Source of the DNA: Bifidobacterium canis
GTDB lineage: Bacteria; Actinomycetota; Actinomycetes; Actinomycetales; Bifidobacteriaceae
Length of the DNA: 64,000 nucleotides
Direction of reading: 5' to 3'
Assembly (NCBI RefSeq): GCF_009727065.1
Contig: NZ_WNLP01000003.1
Coordinates: forward strand, 145,335-209,334
The position numbers and the translations under genes were made by a program. A model generated the notes under the pieces. That model was not told the DNA's origin. It saw only the letters and a list, made by a program, of their open reading frames with translations, and made no database searches. The first letter of the stretch is position 1. Every line of letters starts with the position of its first letter. Shown in pieces: positions 48,520 to 57,758 of the stretch.

Positions 48520-48900
48520 ATGGCTAAGTTCACTCAGGATGAACTCCTCGAAGCTTTCGGCGAGATGACCCTCGTTGAGCTGTCCGACTTCGTCAAGGCA
48601 TTCGAAGACAAGTTCGACGTCGAAGCTGCTGCTCCGGTTGCCGCTGTTGCCGCTGCCGCTCCGGGCGCTGCTCCGGCTGAGGAAGAGAAGGATGAGTTCG
48701 ACGTCATCCTCTCCGCCGTTGGCGACAAGAAGATCCAGGTCATCAAGGCTGTCCGCGCCATCACCAACCTCGGTCTGGCCGACGCCAAGGCTCTCGTTGA
48801 CGGCGCTCCGAAGCCGGTTCTCGAGCACGCCAAGAAGGAAGACGCCGACAAGGCCAAGGCTCAGCTCGAAGAAGCTGGCGCCACCGTCGAGTTCAAGTGA
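48520..48900 (+). CDS. rplL: 50S ribosomal protein L7/L12
   Basis: A 126-residue stalk protein with the N-terminal dimer domain ([20 protein letters not shown]), an Ala-rich hinge ([18 protein letters not shown]) and the factor-binding domain ([31 protein letters not shown]). It recruits translation factors. GAAAGGAAG precedes the ATG. Confidence 0.98.
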
Positions 48901-48946
48901 TTTGTGCGGCTTAGCCGCGTGAATTGCTGGAGTTTCTAGCGTTTTG

Positions 48947-48982
48947 AAGTCCCGCACGTATTTCGTGCGGGACTTTCTTATT
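48947..48982 (+). terminator. Terminator after rplL
   Basis: AAGTCCCGCACG and CGTGCGGGACTT pair perfectly (12 bp) around TATTT and are followed by TCTTATT. Confidence 0.92.
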
Positions 48983-49000
48983 CGCGCTATCTCGCTACGT

Positions 49001-49062
49001 TTTCGACCAATATACATAAGTGTCGCAAAGCGAGCTCAAATCGACCAATATATATTGGTCGA
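49001..49062. promoter_or_regulatory. Two TCGACCAA-type palindromes upstream of the FHA operon
   Basis: At 49041-49062 TCGACCAA-TATATA-TTGGTCGA is a perfect 22-bp palindrome. At 49001 TTTCGACCAA begins a weaker copy with a degenerate right arm (GTCGCAAA). The same arms flank a 9-base spacer before the sortase gene (34238-34266). Confidence 0.6.
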
Positions 49063-49272
49063 AAGGGAAAGCGGAGGTAGTCAAAGCGCGCGCGGCGCTC
49101 CTCCCTAAGCGTGAAAAGCAGCGGGCTCGCCAGTTTCGCACGATTTTGTTTGCTTCATTGCTAGAATTGCAAAAGAGTGTGCGATGCGCGAGCATGCCGT
49201 CGCAACGCGAGCGGAACTCTACGTAGAATAGTGCATATTCAAGATGAACATGGCGGGAAAGGGCGGCCAACA

Positions 49273-50970
49273 GTGAGCAGCGAGCAAGGTGCGGCGACCA
49301 AATGGGTGATTCTTGTTGATGGCACGCAGTTAGCGAGCGTAGAGCCCGGCAACAGCGTAGAAATCGGCAGAAAACCACTGCGACCGCTTCCCGACGACGG
49401 TAAGAAGCGCGTGGAGATTCTCGACGATTCACGATCCATCTCCAAACGGCACGCACTGCTCACAGTGGCACGTGACGGTCAGGCTTTTCTGCGTGACCTC
49501 AACTCCACCAACGGCACGTTCCTCGTGCGCACCGGCGACGAACTCGTGCGTCTGCAGAGCGGCGTTGATTTTCCGCTGCAGTCAGATTCAGTGCATGTGC
49601 AGTTCGGTGACGTGCCCGTGGATCTTGCGAAATTCATCGAAGATGACGATTCCACCAAAGACGACACCCCAGTGGTGAACCTGTTCGACTATGCAGTCGA
49701 CGGCTCGGCGAACGAGCCGGAGGTCGCAGACATGTCTGTTGACGATATTCTGAATCTGCGCGCAGGCGAACCGACCGATATTTTCAACGCGCGCAATGTG
49801 CGTGCGCGCGCCACGCAGCTGCACGAGGCCGAACAACAGTCGTTCGTGCCGTTCACGCAGCCGATCAATCCACTGCCTATTCAAGAACTCGATGACGAAG
49901 ACGCTGGTGAAGATACTCCGCGTGACTTGTTCGCAGATGCGAAGAACGTCGCCGAAGGCATAATCGAAGAACCTGCTGCCACACAGCAGCCGTTCGTCAA
50001 GCAACTCTCCGACAAGCCGAAGCACGCGGGCGCTCCGGCCGATCGCCTGATCAGCGTGACCGAACTTGCTTCAGCACGTCCGAAGACGATGCCGCAGGCG
50101 CACAGCAGCATGCCGCGCAATGCGGAGGAAGCTGCCGCGGCATCGATCACGCACACCACTGGAAGCATACCGGTCACTTCGGCATCAGCTGAGTCTGCGG
50201 AAACTGCGGAATCTGCGAACTCAGCGAACTCTGCAAACTCTGCGAACTCCGCCGAGACGAACGCAGCTGCGGAGAGCGAGCGAGCCGAAGCTGCCGTCAA
50301 CGCGACCACCGTTACGGAGATCTCGGTCACCGAACAGCCTGCTGAGCAGCAAGCGCAAACGGAGCAGCCGCAATCCGATGAATCTGCTGCGCAGAATGCG
50401 GAAGCCGAGCATGCTGACGCACAGAATAACGCCGACGCCGAGTCTGCGCAAGCGCCCGCGGAAACCGCGGCGCAGGCCGCGCAAGACATGCTCGAATCGG
50501 TTGACAATGAGCAGAACGCGCAGGCGGCTGCGCAGGCCGAGCAATCCGAGGAATCCGCGAGCGTGAGCGTGGACGAAGATTACTCGCGTTTCCAGCGCGG
50601 CGCCGAAGACGCCGAGCAGTCGGCGTCCGCGAACGATGCCGATGCGAACGTCGCAGATGAGGCGGGGGACTACACCGCCGCGTTCGAACCGGGATCGGTG
50701 TTCGAAAAAGTGGCGAACGGTGAGTTCAATAAGCAGGAGCCGCTCGTTGAAGTCGATGGATTCACTTCGGATGACGCACGCCGCAGCGACGATTTCGCCG
50801 AACAGTTCCAGATGGCACGGCACCCTGAACTGCTGCCGTTCCTGGCGATGAACCCATCGCTGTATGATGACCTCTTCGCTTGGTTGGCGGCGCAAGGCAA
50901 TGCTGATATTGACGAGGCACTGAGTAAAAACGCAGGTTATGAAGACTATCGCAATGCGATGGGAAAGTGA
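49273..50970 (+). CDS. FHA-domain protein with long low-complexity region
   Basis: A 565-residue cytosolic protein. The N-terminal FHA domain (about 5-100) has the phosphothreonine-binding signature: VEIGRKPLRP, SISKRHALLTV and LNSTNGTFLV. Residues about 280-480 are Ala/Glu/Gln/Ser-rich, including SANSANSANSAN-type repeats, likely disordered. A conserved-looking C-terminal part (DFAEQFQMARHPELLPFLAM, YDDLFAWLAAQGNADIDEAL) ends it. I chose GTG 49273; AAAGGG lies about 10 bases before it, and the longer frame upstream has no site. It is translationally close to the next gene. FHA domains read Ser/Thr-kinase phosphorylation; here the partner is probably the helicase-like protein. Confidence 0.85.
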   Translation: MSSEQGAATKWVILVDGTQLASVEPGNSVEIGRKPLRPLPDDGKKRVEILDDSRSISKRHALLTVARDGQAFLRDLNSTNGTFLVRTGDELVRLQSGVDFPLQSDSVHVQFGDVPVDLAKFIEDDDSTKDDTPVVNLFDYAVDGSANEPEVADMSVDDILNLRAGEPTDIFNARNVRARATQLHEAEQQSFVPFTQPINPLPIQELDDEDAGEDTPRDLFADAKNVAEGIIEEPAATQQPFVKQLSDKPKHAGAPADRLISVTELASARPKTMPQAHSSMPRNAEEAAAASITHTTGSIPVTSASAESAETAESANSANSANSANSAETNAAAESERAEAAVNATTVTEISVTEQPAEQQAQTEQPQSDESAAQNAEAEHADAQNNADAESAQAPAETAAQAAQDMLESVDNEQNAQAAAQAEQSEESASVSVDEDYSRFQRGAEDAEQSASANDADANVADEAGDYTAAFEPGSVFEKVANGEFNKQEPLVEVDGFTSDDARRSDDFAEQFQMARHPELLPFLAMNPSLYDDLFAWLAAQGNADIDEALSKNAGYEDYRNAMGK

Positions 50971-50975
50971 GCCCG

Positions 50976-53900
50976 ATGTCTGACAACACGAATGTAAGTA
51001 AAGCAGAGCAGGTCAGCGCTTCCTTGGACCAGCTGCGTCATTGGCGCGACGAATATCGCGCGAGTCTGATGGCCTCGCCGCTGGAAGATGTGAACCAGCT
51101 CAGCGCCAAACTAGACCTGACTCACGCCCACCCATCGGGCATTTCGCAGCTGTTCGCCAGCGGCAGCGCCCCACTGCACTCACTGTTCCGCGATAGTGGC
51201 ATGTTGCGCGCCGCGGCTCGCCGTGCGGAACGCGTGTTCGACGATCAGAGCGCAAAAAAGCGCGTCAGCGGCGTCGCTGAACTCTCCCTCGTGGTCGGCG
51301 TGGCCACGTGGAAGGGCAACAAGATGCCGGTTCTGCTGTATCCGGTGGAAGTGGTGCGAGACGGCACTCCGGTGGAGAACCACACGACCATCACATTCAC
51401 CGGGCATGTGCGCCTGAACTCGGCATTCCTCAACGCAATGCGCGAGAACGGTGTGAGCCTTGACGAGCGCCAGCTGTTCGACGGCTCCAACTACGCCAGC
51501 GGCACGCCCGAGACTGCGGCGGTGTTCGCCGTCATCACGAAGGCCGCCCAGCAGGTGTTCGCCGACTTCTCGATCGAACGTCAGATTATTCTCGGCTGTT
51601 TCGTCGACCCGTCCACTCAGATTCTGCTGGAAAGCAGGCTGATCATCGAGCGCCTCGCCAAAGGGCCGATCAACAACGTCATGCTGAACGCGCTGGCAGG
51701 CTACCCCGAGGCCGCCGCCGAGCTTTCGCAAGTGAAACTTCCTCCATATAGCCCGTTCGACGGCGACCCGCACTCCGAATATGAGGTTGGCGATGTCGAC
51801 AACACGGTGCGATATGCGGCGAATATGGCTGCCGCCGGTCACTCGCTATTCGTTGACGGCACACTTGGCAACGACACCGCTGAACAGGCCGCGGCCATAG
51901 CCTCACGTTGCGTGATGGCTGGCCGCTCGGTGCTGTATGTGCCGTGTGTGACCGCGCAGAAGCGCACGTTCACGATGCTGATGAAGGCCAACGAACTCGG
52001 TGACCAGCTGCTCGACGTGGCAGACCCGAACGCGAATGCGGCCATCGACCACCAGCTCATCAGCGCAGTCGGCTACCAGCAGGGCGTCGCGACTTCACGC
52101 TTCGAACAGTTGGCAGACGAACTCGTGGGTGTGCGCTCACGCCTAACCCGCTATTTGGGCGATCTGCACGGTGTGAACCAGACGTGGGGCGTTTCGGCAT
52201 ATCAGACGATTCAGAACCTCGCCAGCATTTCTGAGCTCGACGCTCACCCGATGACCCGCGTGCGTTTGTCGAAGGAGTGCGCGCTGTCGGTCGGCAAGTC
52301 GCTTGACGATTGGTCGAAGAAACTCGAACGCGCCGGCGAACTCGGCGAATATACGATCGGTCCTGACGACACCGCATGGTTCGGCGCTTCGCTGTATAGC
52401 GAAGAGGAAGCCATCGAAACCTACCAGCGCGTCGTCAACGTGCTGCGTACATTGCTGCCCGCCACACGTGAGCAGGTTGCCACCACCGTCAAGATCTGCG
52501 GCTTCTCCGTGCCGCAAAGCGCACAGGAGTGGGGTCGTCAGGTGAGCGTGCTGAAGAATTTGCGTCGCGTGCTCGACGTGTTCCAGCCGGAGATCTTCGA
52601 GCGCGACATCGATGCGATGATCGAAGCCACCGAAACCAAGCAGGAGCGCAAAGCTCACGATTCACAGATGGGATTCTGGGATCGTCGCCGCCACGTCAAA
52701 GAGGCCAAGAGCATGCTGCGCGTCGGCGCTCAGGTGGAGAACCTGCATGAGGCGCTGATCGTCGTCAAGAAGCAGGCCGAACAATGGCGTCTTTTCGTGC
52801 CGCACGGCGGCTGGCCGATTCTGCCTCCGAAGCTCGATGACATCATCGACACGCAAGAGCAGCTGATGGGCAACCTCACGGCGCTCGACACGGTTCTGGC
52901 CACCACGCCAGCTGGCGCTGATCTCGAAAGCCAAGACTTCAACGATCTCGAAGAACGCTTGAAGGCACTGTTCGACGACCGCAAGGCGCTCGACACGTTG
53001 CCGGAGCGTTGCGTGATCGAACGCGAACTCAGCCGAGCAGGGCTGCTTGAACTCGTTGAAGACCTGCGTGAACGCAAAGTGGACGTCAACGCGGTCAGCA
53101 ACGAGCTCAAGCTCGCCTGGTGGACGACGGTGTTCGACGACATCGTGCATTCCTCCGCGATCATCTCGAACCAAGACGGTTCCGCATTGCAGGCTGCCTC
53201 CGACCGCTTCGTGCAGGTCGACGTGGAGCATGTGAGGTCGATCGGTCCGATGGTGATGCAGGAATCGATGCGTCGCCTGTGCGATCTGCTGTTCTCCCGC
53301 ACTCAGGAAGCGAACATGATGCACACGGCGCTCGCCGGTGCTTCCAACATCTCGTTGAGTCGCATCCATCAGGATCACCCCGAGATTCTGGCTGCCGCCA
53401 AGCCGATCATCATGGCCACCCCAGCTACGTTGGCTGCCGTGACGAACCCGACGCCTATCGCTGACGTGGCGATCATCGACGCCGCCGCGCACCTGCCATC
53501 GGTGTTGCTGCTCAGCATTCTGTGCCGTGCACGCCAAGTGGTTATTCTCGCTCACCACAGCACGGTGACGAGCGAAGGCATTCGCATACTGATGTCGATG
53601 TTGCCGAACATCTCGGTGGAATCTCACCCCACTCGCCGCGATCCACGCGTCAACCTGTTCCTGGAAGAGCAGGGCTATGGCAAGATCAAGGGCGATGTGG
53701 TGCGCGAACCGATGCAGGGTCACATTCGCTTCCACAAGATCGAAGCCGCGGGCGTGCCGCTCATGGCAAGTGGGTTGGTGGAGAGCTCCCAGCAGGAGAT
53801 CGCCGAAGTCGTGCGTCTGATCACGCAACGCGCTCAGACGTTCACATTGGTGCCACCGAGCTATCTGCTCACCGTGGTGTGCCTTACCTCGACGTTCCGC

Positions 53901-54614
53901 ACGCGTCTTGGCGCCGAACTGCGTTCTCTGGCCGCCAAGAGCGAGGCGATGGGGCGCTTCCTGCGTCACGTGCGCATCGTAGACATCGTTGACGTCGCCG
54001 GTGCACGTGCCACCGATGTGATCCTGTCGATGAGCTATGCGAAAACCACGCACGGCAGGCTGCTTCAGCAGTTCGGCGCTCTTGAGAACGATGGTGGCCG
54101 AGGCATGCTGCTCGATGCGTTGGCGCTGTGCGATCATCATCTCGACATCGTGAGCGCTTTCGGAGCCAGCGACCTCGACGACGAACGCCTGCATCAAGAC
54201 GGTCCGAAGATGCTCAAAGTGCTGCTGCAGTGGGCGGAAGACCTCGATGAAGCCATGGTGGTGCGTCCACAGATCGAAGAAACCGACGAAAACGTGTTGT
54301 TCAACGATCTCGCGGCTCGCATTCGCGAACGCGGCTTGAACGTGGCTGTCAACTACGGCTATGACGGCGATCTGAAGCTGCCGATGGTCGTTGGGCTCAA
54401 AGACAAGCCATATGCTTTGGCAGTGTTCACTGATGATGCACAGTTCATGAGCATGCAATCCACGCGCGAACGCCACCGCATTCTCCCGCAGGAGATCGAG
54501 AGCCTCGGATGGTCGGTTATGACCATTTGGAGCGTCGGCGCATTCGTGAACCCCGAAAAGGAAGTCGACCGCGTGGTGGCACGACTCGGCGAAATCTACC
54601 AAGACAAGCGTTAG
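50976..54614 (+). CDS. Helicase-like protein with degenerate ATPase and nuclease motifs
   Basis: A 1,212-residue protein with the plan of DUF4011/SF1-type helicases that end in a Vsr-like nuclease domain. The expected P-loop reads DGTLGNDTAEQ (residues 294-304): Asp300 replaces the Walker A lysine. The Walker B segment ADVAIIDAAAHLPS has Ala836 after Asp835 where Glu is normal. The C-terminus shows the family ending RERHRILPQEIESLGWSVMT then IWSVGAFVNPEKEVDRVV, but the nuclease acidic motif (usually I-E-C-D-G) reads LAVFTDDA. It is thus probably a pseudo-helicase or scaffold. ATG 50976 is 5 bases after the FHA stop, with GGGAAAG upstream; a GTG at 50967 overlaps. Function unknown. Confidence 0.75.
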   Translation: MSDNTNVSKAEQVSASLDQLRHWRDEYRASLMASPLEDVNQLSAKLDLTHAHPSGISQLFASGSAPLHSLFRDSGMLRAAARRAERVFDDQSAKKRVSGVAELSLVVGVATWKGNKMPVLLYPVEVVRDGTPVENHTTITFTGHVRLNSAFLNAMRENGVSLDERQLFDGSNYASGTPETAAVFAVITKAAQQVFADFSIERQIILGCFVDPSTQILLESRLIIERLAKGPINNVMLNALAGYPEAAAELSQVKLPPYSPFDGDPHSEYEVGDVDNTVRYAANMAAAGHSLFVDGTLGNDTAEQAAAIASRCVMAGRSVLYVPCVTAQKRTFTMLMKANELGDQLLDVADPNANAAIDHQLISAVGYQQGVATSRFEQLADELVGVRSRLTRYLGDLHGVNQTWGVSAYQTIQNLASISELDAHPMTRVRLSKECALSVGKSLDDWSKKLERAGELGEYTIGPDDTAWFGASLYSEEEAIETYQRVVNVLRTLLPATREQVATTVKICGFSVPQSAQEWGRQVSVLKNLRRVLDVFQPEIFERDIDAMIEATETKQERKAHDSQMGFWDRRRHVKEAKSMLRVGAQVENLHEALIVVKKQAEQWRLFVPHGGWPILPPKLDDIIDTQEQLMGNLTALDTVLATTPAGADLESQDFNDLEERLKALFDDRKALDTLPERCVIERELSRAGLLELVEDLRERKVDVNAVSNELKLAWWTTVFDDIVHSSAIISNQDGSALQAASDRFVQVDVEHVRSIGPMVMQESMRRLCDLLFSRTQEANMMHTALAGASNISLSRIHQDHPEILAAAKPIIMATPATLAAVTNPTPIADVAIIDAAAHLPSVLLLSILCRARQVVILAHHSTVTSEGIRILMSMLPNISVESHPTRRDPRVNLFLEEQGYGKIKGDVVREPMQGHIRFHKIEAAGVPLMASGLVESSQQEIAEVVRLITQRAQTFTLVPPSYLLTVVCLTSTFRTRLGAELRSLAAKSEAMGRFLRHVRIVDIVDVAGARATDVILSMSYAKTTHGRLLQQFGALENDGGRGMLLDALALCDHHLDIVSAFGASDLDDERLHQDGPKMLKVLLQWAEDLDEAMVVRPQIEETDENVLFNDLAARIRERGLNVAVNYGYDGDLKLPMVVGLKDKPYALAVFTDDAQFMSMQSTRERHRILPQEIESLGWSVMTIWSVGAFVNPEKEVDRVVARLGEIYQDKR

Positions 54615-54615
54615 C

Positions 54616-54840
54616 ATGACCGATTCCAACGATTCTGAACCACGCCCATACAGCGCCACGCGCCGCACCCCACGAGTGCATAAGCGCGTGGTGCATCAGG
54701 GTACGGAACGATTCGACGCCGATGGCGTCAAACTCGATCCGTCAGAGGCCATGACGAGCCAGCAGCGGCAGGCAGACGACGACAAGCGCATTCTCTCCGA
54801 ATTGCCACCCCACTGGGGCGTGTTCGAAGAACGCCAATAA
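54616..54840 (+). CDS. Small hypothetical protein behind the helicase-like gene
   Basis: A 74-residue, highly charged protein (TDSNDSEPRPYSATRRTP, HKRVVHQGTERFDADGVKLD) with a C-terminal ELPPHWGVFEERQ. The ATG lies one base after the previous stop, which supports translation from the same transcript. No known domain is recognised. It probably works with the FHA and helicase-like proteins. Confidence 0.7.
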   Translation: MTDSNDSEPRPYSATRRTPRVHKRVVHQGTERFDADGVKLDPSEAMTSQQRQADDDKRILSELPPHWGVFEERQ

Positions 54841-54933
54841 GCCTCTTACAGCTTCTGTCAGCTTCCGATAGACTCATACGTTCGTTACCGCAACCATGCA
54901 GCCGAAGCAGTATGAGCCAACCGGCTGGCGCGT

Positions 54934-55596
54934 TCACGCGCGCGCCATCGCCGCTATGAGTGCACCTTGCTCCTGAGCTTTCAACACTGCCATCGCTTCA
55001 TCGACGTCGAGTGCCATAGCAGTGAGCGACGCCCCGCTGTCATCGAGTCGTGGTTCAGCCATCACAATTGCCCGTGTGCTGACCACGCACCCATCGGGAG
55101 AGGCTCGCGCCTGCTCAGTGCAAGCGTTCATCGAACGCAACTCCACAACGGTTCCCAACGCAAACGGGTGTTGCCCGGCCGCAAGCCGCACATCGATCAC
55201 CGTTTGCTGTTCGCCAACCTTCGGCGTCGCCTTCACGCTCGAGGCCAGCAGAATATCCCCTTCCTCCAAAGGCATTTGCGTAATCAACCCAATGGCCTTA
55301 TCCGTACTCACGAGCGCATTGTCAAGCGCATCGAACGCCGGTGCCTCAACCACCGCAATGTCACTCACGCCGAGCACAGTGCCCGCGTCAAGCGATCTAT
55401 CGGCAACAACCACAGTCCGTGTGGCGGTGGCGTCGATGATGCATTGCAGTATGCAGAACACCGTTACGGAGGCGAGCAGCGCGATCATGTATCGGCGTAG
55501 CTGCCAGAGCATGCGTCGCGCATGCAGTGACTCGCCTTTCGCGGCGTTCGCGTCATCACCGTCGCGGTGAAGAAATCGCATAAGAAAAGCCATCAT
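54934..55596 (-). CDS. SAF-domain membrane protein (CpaB-like)
   Basis: About 220 residues: a cytosolic N-terminus, one membrane helix (MIALLASVTVFCILQCII) and an extracytoplasmic SAF domain (RTVVVADRSLDAGTVLGVSD, LITQMPLEEGDILLAS). SAF proteins of this kind resemble the pilus assembly protein CpaB, and actinobacteria often carry one beside fmdB and the 5-formyl-THF cyclo-ligase gene. The start is uncertain: ATG 55596 lacks a clear ribosome-binding site, and a TTG at 55644 is the alternative. Confidence 0.75.
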   Translation of the reverse strand: MMAFLMRFLHRDGDDANAAKGESLHARRMLWQLRRYMIALLASVTVFCILQCIIDATATRTVVVADRSLDAGTVLGVSDIAVVEAPAFDALDNALVSTDKAIGLITQMPLEEGDILLASSVKATPKVGEQQTVIDVRLAAGQHPFALGTVVELRSMNACTEQARASPDGCVVSTRAIVMAEPRLDDSGASLTAMALDVDEAMAVLKAQEQGALIAAMARA

Positions 55597-55643
55597 GTTT
55601 CGATGATGGCTTGAGTGGAATCGAGAGTCCAGTCTCACAGGCA

Positions 55644-55695
55644 ATTGTGGTTTGTTGACGAAGTTAATTGATTAACTTCGTCAACAAACCACAAT
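55644..55695. terminator. Perfect 25-bp inverted repeat between fmdB and the SAF gene
   Basis: The arm at 55644-55668 (starting ATTGTGGTTTGTTGACGAAG) is fully complementary to 55671-55695. It lies 5 bases past the fmdB stop. There is no T-run, so it could be a terminator, an mRNA stabiliser or a small inverted-repeat element. Confidence 0.6.
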
Positions 55696-55699
55696 CACA

Positions 55700-55891
55700 T
55701 TATTTAGACGATCCTTTGCTGTCGGTGCGGTAGAATCCGCTGCCTTTGAACGTGATCGGCACGGCGGAATACACCTTATGCACCTGCTTAGCGCCGCACT
55801 TCGGGCAGATCTCAATCGGCTGGTCGGTGAACGACTGCTCTTTGGTAAAGTCGTAACCGCAGTTCTTGCAGCGATAATGGTATGTTGGCAC
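55700..55891 (-). CDS. FmdB-type zinc-ribbon protein
   Basis: A 63-residue protein with two CxxC knuckles (YRCKNCGYDF and ICPKCGAKQ) and the family tail VYSAVPITFKGSGFYRTD. I chose GTG 55891 because AAGGAG lies 7 bases upstream and the family starts PTYHYRC; an ATG six codons earlier (MSKELF) would overlap that site. The mycobacterial homologue in the same gene order is a small redox-sensitive chaperone partner, so a stress role is possible. Confidence 0.9.
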   Translation of the reverse strand: MPTYHYRCKNCGYDFTKEQSFTDQPIEICPKCGAKQVHKVYSAVPITFKGSGFYRTDSKGSSK

Positions 55892-56323
55892 GAAAAGCTC
55901 CTTGCTCAATAAGCCTCTTTACGCATTCATATCTGCCATAATCCTAATACGCCTCCCGACAGAGGTCAGCGTAATGTTCGCCTCAGCGAAACGTGCAGTT
56001 CCCTTTTCTTCGCTGCCCATCTCGCTCCATTCCGGAGAATTATTCTCTGATGTAGAATGCTCTACCCATTACAAACATCCATTCCGGAGAATTATTCTCT
56101 CAGTTAGCCGTCTCTCAATCAGAGAATTATTCTCTCGCGCAGATATTTGTAATGGTTAGCTGCCCTTCAACTGGGAGAATTATTCTCCGGAAGGTATGTT
56201 CGTAATGATTGGCACGCTCTAACTGGGAGAATAATTCTCCAGAATGGATATTCGTGTGAGTTACACGCGCCTCAATCAGAGAATAATTCTCCGGAATGAA
56301 TGTTCGTAATGATGGGGAGGGGG
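55892..56323. other. Repeat-bearing gap between the cyclo-ligase and fmdB genes
   Basis: This 432-base gap between two minus-strand genes holds no supported gene. The six palindromes listed separately occupy 56034-56292, and the fmdB promoter must lie near 55900-56000. Confidence 0.65.
56034..56292. repeat. Array of six GGAGAAT-N-ATTCTCC palindromes on a 52-bp pitch
   Basis: Six 15-bp palindromes start at 56034, 56086, 56121, 56174, 56226 and 56278 (spacings 52, 35, 53, 52, 52). All keep GAGAAT-N-ATTCTC; outer bases vary (GG or AG at one end, CC or CT at the other). Spacers share words such as TTCGTAATGATT and CTCAATC, so it is a tandem repeat of about 52 bp with one shortened unit. The palindromes have the 7-1-7 form of Fur-family sites and resemble the Zur-like box at 47606. 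Confidence 0.85.
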
Positions 56324-56968
56324 TTAGCGGGGACTGCGCAGATCTCGGTATTCGCGCGGCGTGAGCACAGCGCTCATGCGAACGTCGTGCTCTTCGCAGG
56401 GTAGGGGAGCGTCTACAAATTCCCACGGCCAGCACATAGCGGTCAACGTGGCGCGCGGATTCGCGTAGCGCAGCGCGCGATCGTACCACGCGGTGCCGCG
56501 GCCGAGACGCACGCCGTCGAGATTGACGAGCAGCGCCGGCACAATAATCCTCGAACATGCCTCCAATGCTTGCGGAGGCAGCATTTCACCGCGCGGCTCC
56601 GGCGGCATGCCTGCGTGTTCGCCTTGCGGTGTCTGCATGTGCAGAAGATCGTCAAGAGACGCGAGCAGAGTCCATCCCACACTCAAATCCGCGCCGACGT
56701 TCGGCACCAGCACGCGGTAGCCGCAGCCCAGCGCTATAGAAAGCAAAGGAATCGTGCTGACTTCCGTTCCCATCGACACATGGCAGGCGATGCAACTCGA
56801 GTGCGCGTCAAACAATCCGGATTCGCACGCAATCTGCGCGCATTGCTCACCGGCGCGCATACTCATGCTCGCAGTAGTGCTTTTGCGCTTGCGAAATACT
56901 TCGTGCCTGAGCACGCGCTTCGCCTCGGCAACGTGTTGTGCGGTTCCCTCCGAACCCAGTGATCCCAT
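56324..56968 (-). CDS. 5-formyltetrahydrofolate cyclo-ligase
   Basis: A 214-residue enzyme converting 5-formyl-THF to methenyl-THF with ATP. Visible blocks are the N-terminal basic region (AEAKRVLRHEVFRKRKS), CGYRVLVPNVGADLSVGW, and the ATP/folate motif VRLGRGTAWYDRALRYANPR, a variant of the usual LGxGGGYYDR. It ends EEHDVRMSAVLTPREYRDLR. In actinobacteria this gene is regularly next to fmdB and divergent from a GNAT gene, as here. Confidence 0.9.
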   Translation of the reverse strand: MGSLGSEGTAQHVAEAKRVLRHEVFRKRKSTTASMSMRAGEQCAQIACESGLFDAHSSCIACHVSMGTEVSTIPLLSIALGCGYRVLVPNVGADLSVGWTLLASLDDLLHMQTPQGEHAGMPPEPRGEMLPPQALEACSRIIVPALLVNLDGVRLGRGTAWYDRALRYANPRATLTAMCWPWEFVDAPLPCEEHDVRMSAVLTPREYRDLRSPR

Positions 56969-57050
56969 ATCAGCAGTCTATCGAAATACCAGTATTCGAG
57001 AATTGAAATCTCATGTTTTATCTCGGCAGAGAAGTCGCGCACGTGGCACA

Positions 57051-57758
57051 ATGAGCACTATGTCTGTTATGCAAGCCATTCGCCGTCGCCTCAACCGCAG
57101 AACTGGTAACGCATATGAGGCTCCGGTCGTGCTGGAATCTCCCGACGGTGCGCCGCAGCTCACATTGCGAACAATGAATTTCGACGATCAGTATGAGTGG
57201 GATCGCCTGCGCGCAAATAACGAGCGCTGGCTCGCACCGTGGGAATCCGCAGACCCGCAAGGCGGCGAGCCGATGACGTTCCGCGGGTGGATCGCGCGGC
57301 AGCGAGAAGAGGAACGCAAAGGCACGTCGATTATTCTCGTGATGGAACACGGCGGTGAATTGATTGGGCAGATTTCGCTTGGTGCGATTTATGAGGGGCC
57401 GATGCGCACCGGCATCGTGGGCTACTGGGTGGACGAGCGGCACGCAGGCAACGGTTTCACTCCGCTCGCCGTTGCCATGCTCGCAGACTGGGCACTGCTT
57501 GAGCCCGCTGGACCCTTGCTGCACCGCTTGGAAATCGATATTGTGCCGGAAAACGAACGCTCACGCAGAGTAGTGCAAAAAGTTGGCGCAACATTCGAAG
57601 GTGTGCGTAGAAAATACATGTATGTGAGAGGCGAGTGGAGAGACCATGAGTCATACAGTCTGCTTGCTGCTGACGCACCGCACGGTTTTGTCAACCGTCT
57701 TTTTTCGACACGCCAAGTGAAAGTGCACACAACTTGTCATAAGATCTTCTATTCTTAA
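57051..57758 (+). CDS. GNAT N-acetyltransferase, RimJ-like
   Basis: A 235-residue acetyltransferase with RimJ-type blocks: LTLRTMNFDDQYEWDRLRAN, ERWLAPWESADPQGG, LIGQISLGAIYEG, the acetyl-CoA region VGYWVDERHAGNGFTPLAVA and IVPENERSRRVVQKVGATFE. The target is unknown. Start choice is uncertain: ATG 57051 and ATG 57060 both lack a strong ribosome-binding site, and the open frame further up crosses the divergent gene. It lies 5 bases before the SepX-like gene, as in other actinobacteria. Confidence 0.88.
   Translation: MSTMSVMQAIRRRLNRRTGNAYEAPVVLESPDGAPQLTLRTMNFDDQYEWDRLRANNERWLAPWESADPQGGEPMTFRGWIARQREEERKGTSIILVMEHGGELIGQISLGAIYEGPMRTGIVGYWVDERHAGNGFTPLAVAMLADWALLEPAGPLLHRLEIDIVPENERSRRVVQKVGATFEGVRRKYMYVRGEWRDHESYSLLAADAPHGFVNRLFSTRQVKVHTTCHKIFYS

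Follow-up and report, generated by a model that had tools for sequence, protein, structure and literature searches.

A conserved candidate pseudo-helicase/pseudo-nuclease of Bifidobacterium canis, its separately encoded tail and an adjoining FHA protein gene

Why would a bacterium keep a large helicase-like protein in which neither the helicase site nor the nuclease site appears able to work? The question is raised by a gene at positions 50976-54614 (+ strand) of a 64,000-nucleotide stretch of Bifidobacterium canis DNA (contig NZ_WNLP01000003.1; the whole stretch is called the window below). A first-pass annotation, made from the letters alone, had described there a fully open frame of 1,212 residues, and the open reading frame (ORF) and its translation agree with it. 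We found that the catalytic residues of both sites are replaced in this protein and in relatives over a wide part of the order, and that the replacements are largely fixed, which makes an ATP-independent, non-cutting scaffold, at work in some core process of the cell, likely. The reading that we favour, on the strength of sequence comparisons and with about even confidence, is that of a conserved pseudo-helicase/pseudo-nuclease scaffold that would work without ATP and without cutting, would receive its tail in trans from the next gene and would probably be steered by phosphothreonine.

Catalytic motifs of the helicase and nuclease domains

We counted residues at the motif positions of 116 aligned loci of the clade devoid of these catalytic residues (hereafter the dead clade), and of 11 rows chosen as intact. 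The 116 loci, 30 from the same genus and 86 others, were picked by similarity and include at least one repeat (L032/L104). The motif reading leaves out G047 and G051, two of the 22 genomes of the order with a match, and rows L146 and L150 enter neither the trees nor the count. The Walker A lysine and the Walker B glutamate are each found in 0/116 dead-clade loci versus 11/11 intact rows, and the glutamine of motif III and the first arginine of motif VI are likewise absent from all 116.

In the window protein, the former Walker A motif reads DGTLGNDTA (residues 294-302, positions 51855-51881), DTA standing for GKS. Asp300 occupies the glycine position of GK[ST], Thr301 that of the lysine and Ala302 that of the serine; the annotation was thus right about the loss of the lysine and wrong in taking Asp300 for its site. 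At the former Walker B motif, IIDAAAH (residues 833-839, positions 53472-53492; DE..Q changed to DA..H), Ala836 does lie at the glutamate site, as had been proposed, Asp835 is retained, and His839 takes the place of the glutamine of DExxQ. The former motif VI is LALCDHH (residues 1049-1055, positions 54120-54140), against VTRARxR in intact proteins.

Misplaced motifs could have produced the same picture. Homologues with intact GKT and DE motifs do exist, and they show that the initial placement was right to within one residue. Three loci of the same order (L038, L039 and L041) carry GPPGTGKS, DEASQ, TRAR or TRSR and a nuclease D...E-x-D and align throughout with the dead forms; hence, the motif positions are placed correctly. 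The annotation had also left to an alignment of homologues the matter of whether the changes are fixed, and they largely are: Ala836 and His839 each occur in 103/116 loci, and Pro1136 of the nuclease in 114/116.

The nuclease-like domain MTES_1575 (PF18741; residues 1111-1204, positions 54306-54587) is the sole Pfam domain over its cut-off in the window protein (44.2 bits, E 2e-11, cut-off 38.2). Its former active site consists of Pro1136 and Phe1151-Thr-Asp1153-Asp1154 (positions 54381-54437), corresponding to D...E-x-D-G in intact forms. The first aspartate is present in none of the 116 dead-clade loci and the glutamate, Phe1151 here, in two, versus 11/11 intact rows in both cases. The annotation had seen the loss in the segment AVFTDDA. 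The loss is real, although its clearest mark is the exchange of aspartate for Pro1136; Phe1151 is the glutamate site, and Asp1153 of that segment is kept. In the outgroup of long DUF4011 helicases (L131-L135), the glutamate site is already Leu or Met, so that a change of the glutamate alone is no proof of inactivity and the Asp-to-Pro exchange is the safe sign. Two loci of the same genus, L012 and L019, have a glutamate at this site, yet their first aspartate is Pro.

Outside the catalytic residues, 94 positions are identical in the intact and dead forms; they are spread over the N-terminal domain, the helical middle, the surroundings of the former motif V and the nuclease-like domain. Some job of the ancestor that did not depend on catalysis is therefore likely to have been retained.

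Predicted fold

The window protein is predicted to adopt the fold of a superfamily 1B (SF1B) helicase of the Upf1/IGHMBP2/Dna2 type. From the domain plan assigned at first, a DUF4011-type helicase ending in a nuclease, the predicted fold and the C-terminal nuclease-like domain stand. DUF4011 (PF13195) itself is not recognised, with no Pfam match at E <= 10 in the window protein, though the region aligns with the family; Pfam does recognise it in P0124, an intact sister protein. P0124 also has sequence matches to SMUBP-2, Dna2, Sen1 and Upf1, and the window protein has none at E <= 1 to the SF1B helicases Upf1, IGHMBP2, Senataxin and Dna2, which are active ATPases.

Most of the nearest folds belong to RNA helicases (Upf1, IGHMBP2, Senataxin/Sen1 and spliceosomal chains), at 10-14% identity. 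They favour an alternative in which this dead helicase serves as an RNA factor or a transcription factor and not as a DNA scaffold. A precedent is Utp25, reported as a pseudohelicase (PMC9539457); unlike the window protein, it is a eukaryotic ribosome-assembly factor, and the two are likened by description only. We regard this alternative as unlikely but worth keeping in mind.

Phylogeny and age of the losses

The Walker A lysine is absent in 127 of the 130 loci with motifs read, a fraction that is not a census since these loci had been selected for their resemblance either to the window protein or to an alignment that held both kinds. It is absent in 17 of 20 loci of the order (L031-L050). 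In a 68-row tree, rooted with the long DUF4011 helicases and built with the motif columns removed, all rows of a 45-row clade lack the lysine (Shimodaira-Hasegawa-like approximate likelihood-ratio test, SH-aLRT, 100). Nested in it is a 34-row clade (SH-aLRT 92) in which the Walker B glutamate has become Ala, Gly or Ser and the first nuclease aspartate is lost, with Pro in all but two rows. Six rows drew a long-branch warning (L049, L036, L033, L158, L050 and L040). A more careful rooted tree of 44 rows, built without them and again without motif columns, recovered a 27-row clade devoid of the lysine (support 100/99) and a 20-row dead clade (100/100).

The lysine changes five times on the 68-row tree and three times on the 44-row tree, from which P0137 and L158 are absent. 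It was lost elsewhere too, giving GRT in L142-L152, GRS in L143, GTS in P0137 and GVT in L158. By these trees, the lysine loss that concerns the window protein maps to the root of a clade with good support; it is old and common to much of the sampled order. The conserved pseudo-enzyme first proposed for this locus is borne out, and the loss is wider than Bifidobacterium: among the genera represented in the dead clade are Isoptericola, Promicromonospora, Oerskovia, Cellulomonas, Jonesia, Georgenia, Occultella and Actinomyces.

Two side observations were made on these sequences. Loci L142-L154 of the same class (family code f36) have APGTGRT and ED or DD in place of GKS and DE and keep the nuclease E-x-D; their helicase loss appears to have been independent. 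L065, from a record named Sphaerisporangium cinnabarinum, groups with Cellulosimicrobium loci by motifs and identity and is possibly a misnamed assembly.

Selection and presence in genomes

Across the eight closest same-genus pairs, the ratio of non-synonymous to synonymous substitution rates (dN/dS) ranges from 0.012 to 0.215, in keeping with the earlier suggestion that selection keeps the protein. Together with motif losses common to 116 loci, such values indicate that the losses are not due to chance. A match was found in all 59 genomes of one search (37 of the genus and 22 of the order). The search of the family returned one in 113 of 121 genomes, and in 98 of the 100 good ones; six of the eight matchless genomes are incomplete and small. 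The gene is hence a near-core gene of the bifidobacterial family, kept by strong purifying selection. One of the matchless genomes is G207 (genus g93), whereas its listed genus mates have a match. In Bifidobacterium breve UCC2003, 453 genes are given as essential, 53 of them hypothetical, in the available part of one study (PMC5514069).

A decaying relic would be expected to look otherwise, and we consider this explanation hardly credible. The stepwise loss of the catalytic motifs across the tree and the 8/121 family genomes without a match would suit it. The dN/dS values and the largely fixed replacements led us to reject it, and there is no internal stop in any family-search match listed. 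Moreover, the gene has a match in six of the seven genomes of the reduced genus g98 (0.6-0.9 Mb), one of them only a fragment.

The p74 gene and the operon

The pseudo-helicase gene is tightly packed between two others. Five nt separate its ATG from the stop codon of an upstream gene for an FHA protein (49177-50970, + strand), in agreement with the operon first described. Its own stop codon lies 1 nt before the ORF of p74, a protein of 74 residues (54616-54840, + strand). In 22/30 same-genus loci, a start codon of p74 and the helicase stop overlap by 4 nt. A scan for consensus promoters at 48800-55000 found none, versus 1.7 expected by shuffling, which says little. An antisense open frame of 668 residues (52662-54668, minus strand) faces the helicase gene and is probably a by-product of the high GC content.

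p74 had been called a partner of the helicase-like protein. That its gene tightly adjoins is confirmed, and the notion of a partner can be refined, as p74 has no Pfam match but resembles the C-terminal tail of intact sister enzymes. We searched 149 distinct loci, 13 of them cut by contig ends, with a regular expression for the p74 C-terminus, DDDKRILSELPPHWG, whose PPHW is coded at 54805-54816. The pattern occurs in a separate ORF just 3' of the helicase gene in 105 loci and is fused to the helicase in five. The comparison with intact enzymes relies on 120 listed relatives of P0124, 112 of which show GK[ST] and 110 both GK[ST] and DEA by pattern, so that not all are proven intact. Eighty-six of the 120 end in a tail on the same chain, of the type ...DDTDAGWGE...RPPHWG, and a fused PPHW tail is found in 80 of the 110 with both motifs. 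In addition, BLASTP joins p74 to one ORF of the helicase cluster. Because its C-terminus matches the tail fused in the intact sisters, p74 would be the tail of the enzyme supplied in trans. Whether the tail split off or was fused later is a direction that we infer rather than see.

The FHA-LRV gene

The upstream gene codes for a protein of 597 residues (start codon uncertain) with an FHA domain (38.9 bits, cut-off 20.7), a long acidic low-complexity linker and a C-terminal LRV_2 domain (43.1 bits). On these profile matches it is a predicted phosphothreonine reader. It lies directly upstream of the pseudo-helicase in 30/30 same-genus loci, which were cut at 1.5 kb upstream (the FHA end was matched in 24, and the cut fell inside the gene in six), and in 13/14 loci from other genera of the Bifidobacteriaceae. 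Even a genome of 0.8 Mb has the gene with both domains (L171).

No FHA profile match was obtained in the 20 outgroup loci L031-L050, and a place of the FHA-LRV gene in the ancestral unit was rejected on this ground. Judging by the profile searches, only Bifidobacteriaceae show the FHA gene, as an addition to the locus. One outgroup locus, L035, has a weak match to the LRV profile and no Pfam family at E <= 1, and a genome-wide LRV_2 search lists a match over the cut-off there (G056:C24). LRV_2 also occurs in other proteins of these genomes (L184-L195), of which some carry the LRV domain twice. L180 (genus g89), a divergent member of the family, has the PPHW tail and no FHA-LRV match.

The shared gene neighbourhood

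Downstream of p74, the window codes for a SAF-domain protein (54934-55644, minus strand; Pfam SAF 35.9 bits; BLASTP to outgroup neighbour cluster 3) and a zinc-ribbon protein (55700-55909, minus strand; Zn_ribbon_8, 49.3 bits; 16 BLASTP matches to outgroup cluster 13), presumably FmdB-like. These are followed by a protein with 73 BLASTP matches to outgroup cluster 1 (56324-56968, minus strand), which we take from its motifs to be a 5-formyltetrahydrofolate cyclo-ligase, and by a GNAT acetyltransferase (56754-57758, + strand, true start probably further in; Acetyltransf_3, 60.3 bits; 29 BLASTP matches to outgroup cluster 6). Next comes a SepX-like gene with no BLASTP match among the outgroup neighbours. 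Several outgroup loci share an order in which the helicase and a PPHW gene precede MscL-like, SAF-like and cyclo-ligase-like genes, all three on the opposite strand, then GNAT and others further on; the MscL-like name is our assumption from the sequence. Neighbour clusters were relied on for L031-L050 and named loci only. The intact loci L038 and L041 both have the MscL-like and zinc-ribbon clusters, and L038 the SAF cluster. That they have some neighbours in common with the dead loci supports positional orthology at a core locus.

This setting bears on another explanation, that the protein is the sensor subunit of an anti-phage defence system whose catalytic effector lies elsewhere. In its helicase 2A and nuclease regions the window protein does resemble the long DUF4011-type helicases ProA, Hhe and PDC-S37 (NCBIfam, PADLOC), with a PDC-S37 match of 187.7 bits (PADLOC, no cut-off shown). 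However, it scores far under the curated full-length NCBIfam cut-offs for ProA and Hhe (171.1 of 1500 and 55.6 of 2000 bits). The profiles of the three families span 1,550-1,911 positions, and the long relatives L131-L135 carry intact GKS and DE. The other two proteins of the operon have no PADLOC match, and a mobile defence gene is hard to reconcile with the shared locus and the near-universal presence; for these last two reasons a defence island is not our leading reading, and we hold a sensor role to be very unlikely. In Pseudomonas aeruginosa, a DUF4011 gene is a core flank of a defence hotspot, as stated in part of one report (PMC10250203).

Possible mode of action

In the scaffold that we favour, the body would keep the ancestor's grip on nucleic-acid structure or on partners, and p74 may bind back onto it, much as the ancestor's tail would do in cis. 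The FHA-LRV protein would dock the complex to a target phosphorylated on threonine, and kinase signalling could thereby decide the scaffold's place. The whole may resemble RecC or AddB in its working: these helicase-like subunits hold and read DNA as parts of a larger complex, and membership in their families is not implied. A more far-reaching and tentative proposal, which we think possible but doubtful, is that the order-wide dead helicase-nuclease and its separate tail subunit form the body of an unrecognised core complex, to which Bifidobacteriaceae added FHA-LRV for Ser/Thr-kinase control. This would amount to a phospho-steered RecC-like scaffold without catalysis.

Several observations weigh against the scaffold. 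Some catalytic residues persist in the dead clade, namely the Walker B aspartate in 113/116 loci, the last nuclease aspartate (Asp1153) in 116/116 and the second arginine of motif VI in 84 of the 86 non-bifidobacterial loci, with one of 30 in the bifidobacterial ones. The tail pattern was found nowhere in 26 of the 149 distinct loci, some of which are misses of the pattern (L033 and L037; L034 was masked), and a model of a natural fusion (L076) gave the tail no placing (predicted local distance difference test scores of 28-44). The window protein is acidic overall (isoelectric point 5.4), as is intact P0124 to the same degree. Two good genomes of the family, G207 (3.0 Mb, 99% complete) and G254 (0.6 Mb, 95% complete), have no match, and the gene is thus dispensable in some lineages. 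Finally, the FHA link is confined to one family and cannot be the ancestral function.

The persisting residues could also mean that catalysis goes on through non-canonical residues, by NTP binding without the lysine or by cutting with the retained aspartate, and a new chemistry could rest on the replacements that are largely fixed (DAxxH, PxGxD). On the other side, the Walker A lysine, Walker B glutamate, motif III glutamine, first motif VI arginine and first nuclease aspartate are gone in 116/116 loci. We judge such catalysis quite unlikely.

The loss of catalysis has persisted across a broad section of the order, and an intact sister group is available for comparison, so that the locus clearly exemplifies an enzyme that seems to have become a structural part. 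Several database entries call the protein simply a helicase, a label that is probably misleading as to its chemistry. For pull-downs, the genes of the tail and of the FHA protein provide direct handles. As the annotation had supposed, the protein seems not to have been described: we found no description of it in the open-licence PubMed Central (PMC) literature, including the accessible parts of PMC4921777, PMC12278908 and PMC10952713, and searches of that literature turned up few bacterial pseudo-helicases.

Comparison with known systems

In function, the closest models for the window protein are RecC and AddB, subunits of RecBCD and AddAB. According to excerpts of two reports, AddB has an inactive helicase domain (PMC5443536), and in RecC, whose domains are helicase-like, a tunnel reads Chi (PMC7644769). 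Unlike the window locus, both go with a partner gene of the RecBCD or AddAB kind, which is not found in this operon; the analogy is functional only. RecC and AddB also belong to a different helicase subfamily from the window protein.

The closest relationship is with the actinobacterial DUF4011-SF1-MTES_1575 family. The window protein shares with it the MTES_1575 domain, the predicted SF1B fold, part of the neighbourhood and the PPHW tail, here in a separate gene, and lacks the catalytic Walker A lysine, the Walker B glutamate and the nuclease D...E-x-D. The intact DUF4011-AAA_11/12-MTES_1575 proteins of Angustibacter, Pedococcus, Phycicoccus and Nostocoides, named 'AAA domain-containing protein', are 27-30% identical to the window protein over most of its length. 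Like the window locus, they have a PPHW tail and some of the same neighbours; in contrast to the window protein, they keep GKS, DE, TRAR or TRSR and D...E-x-D.

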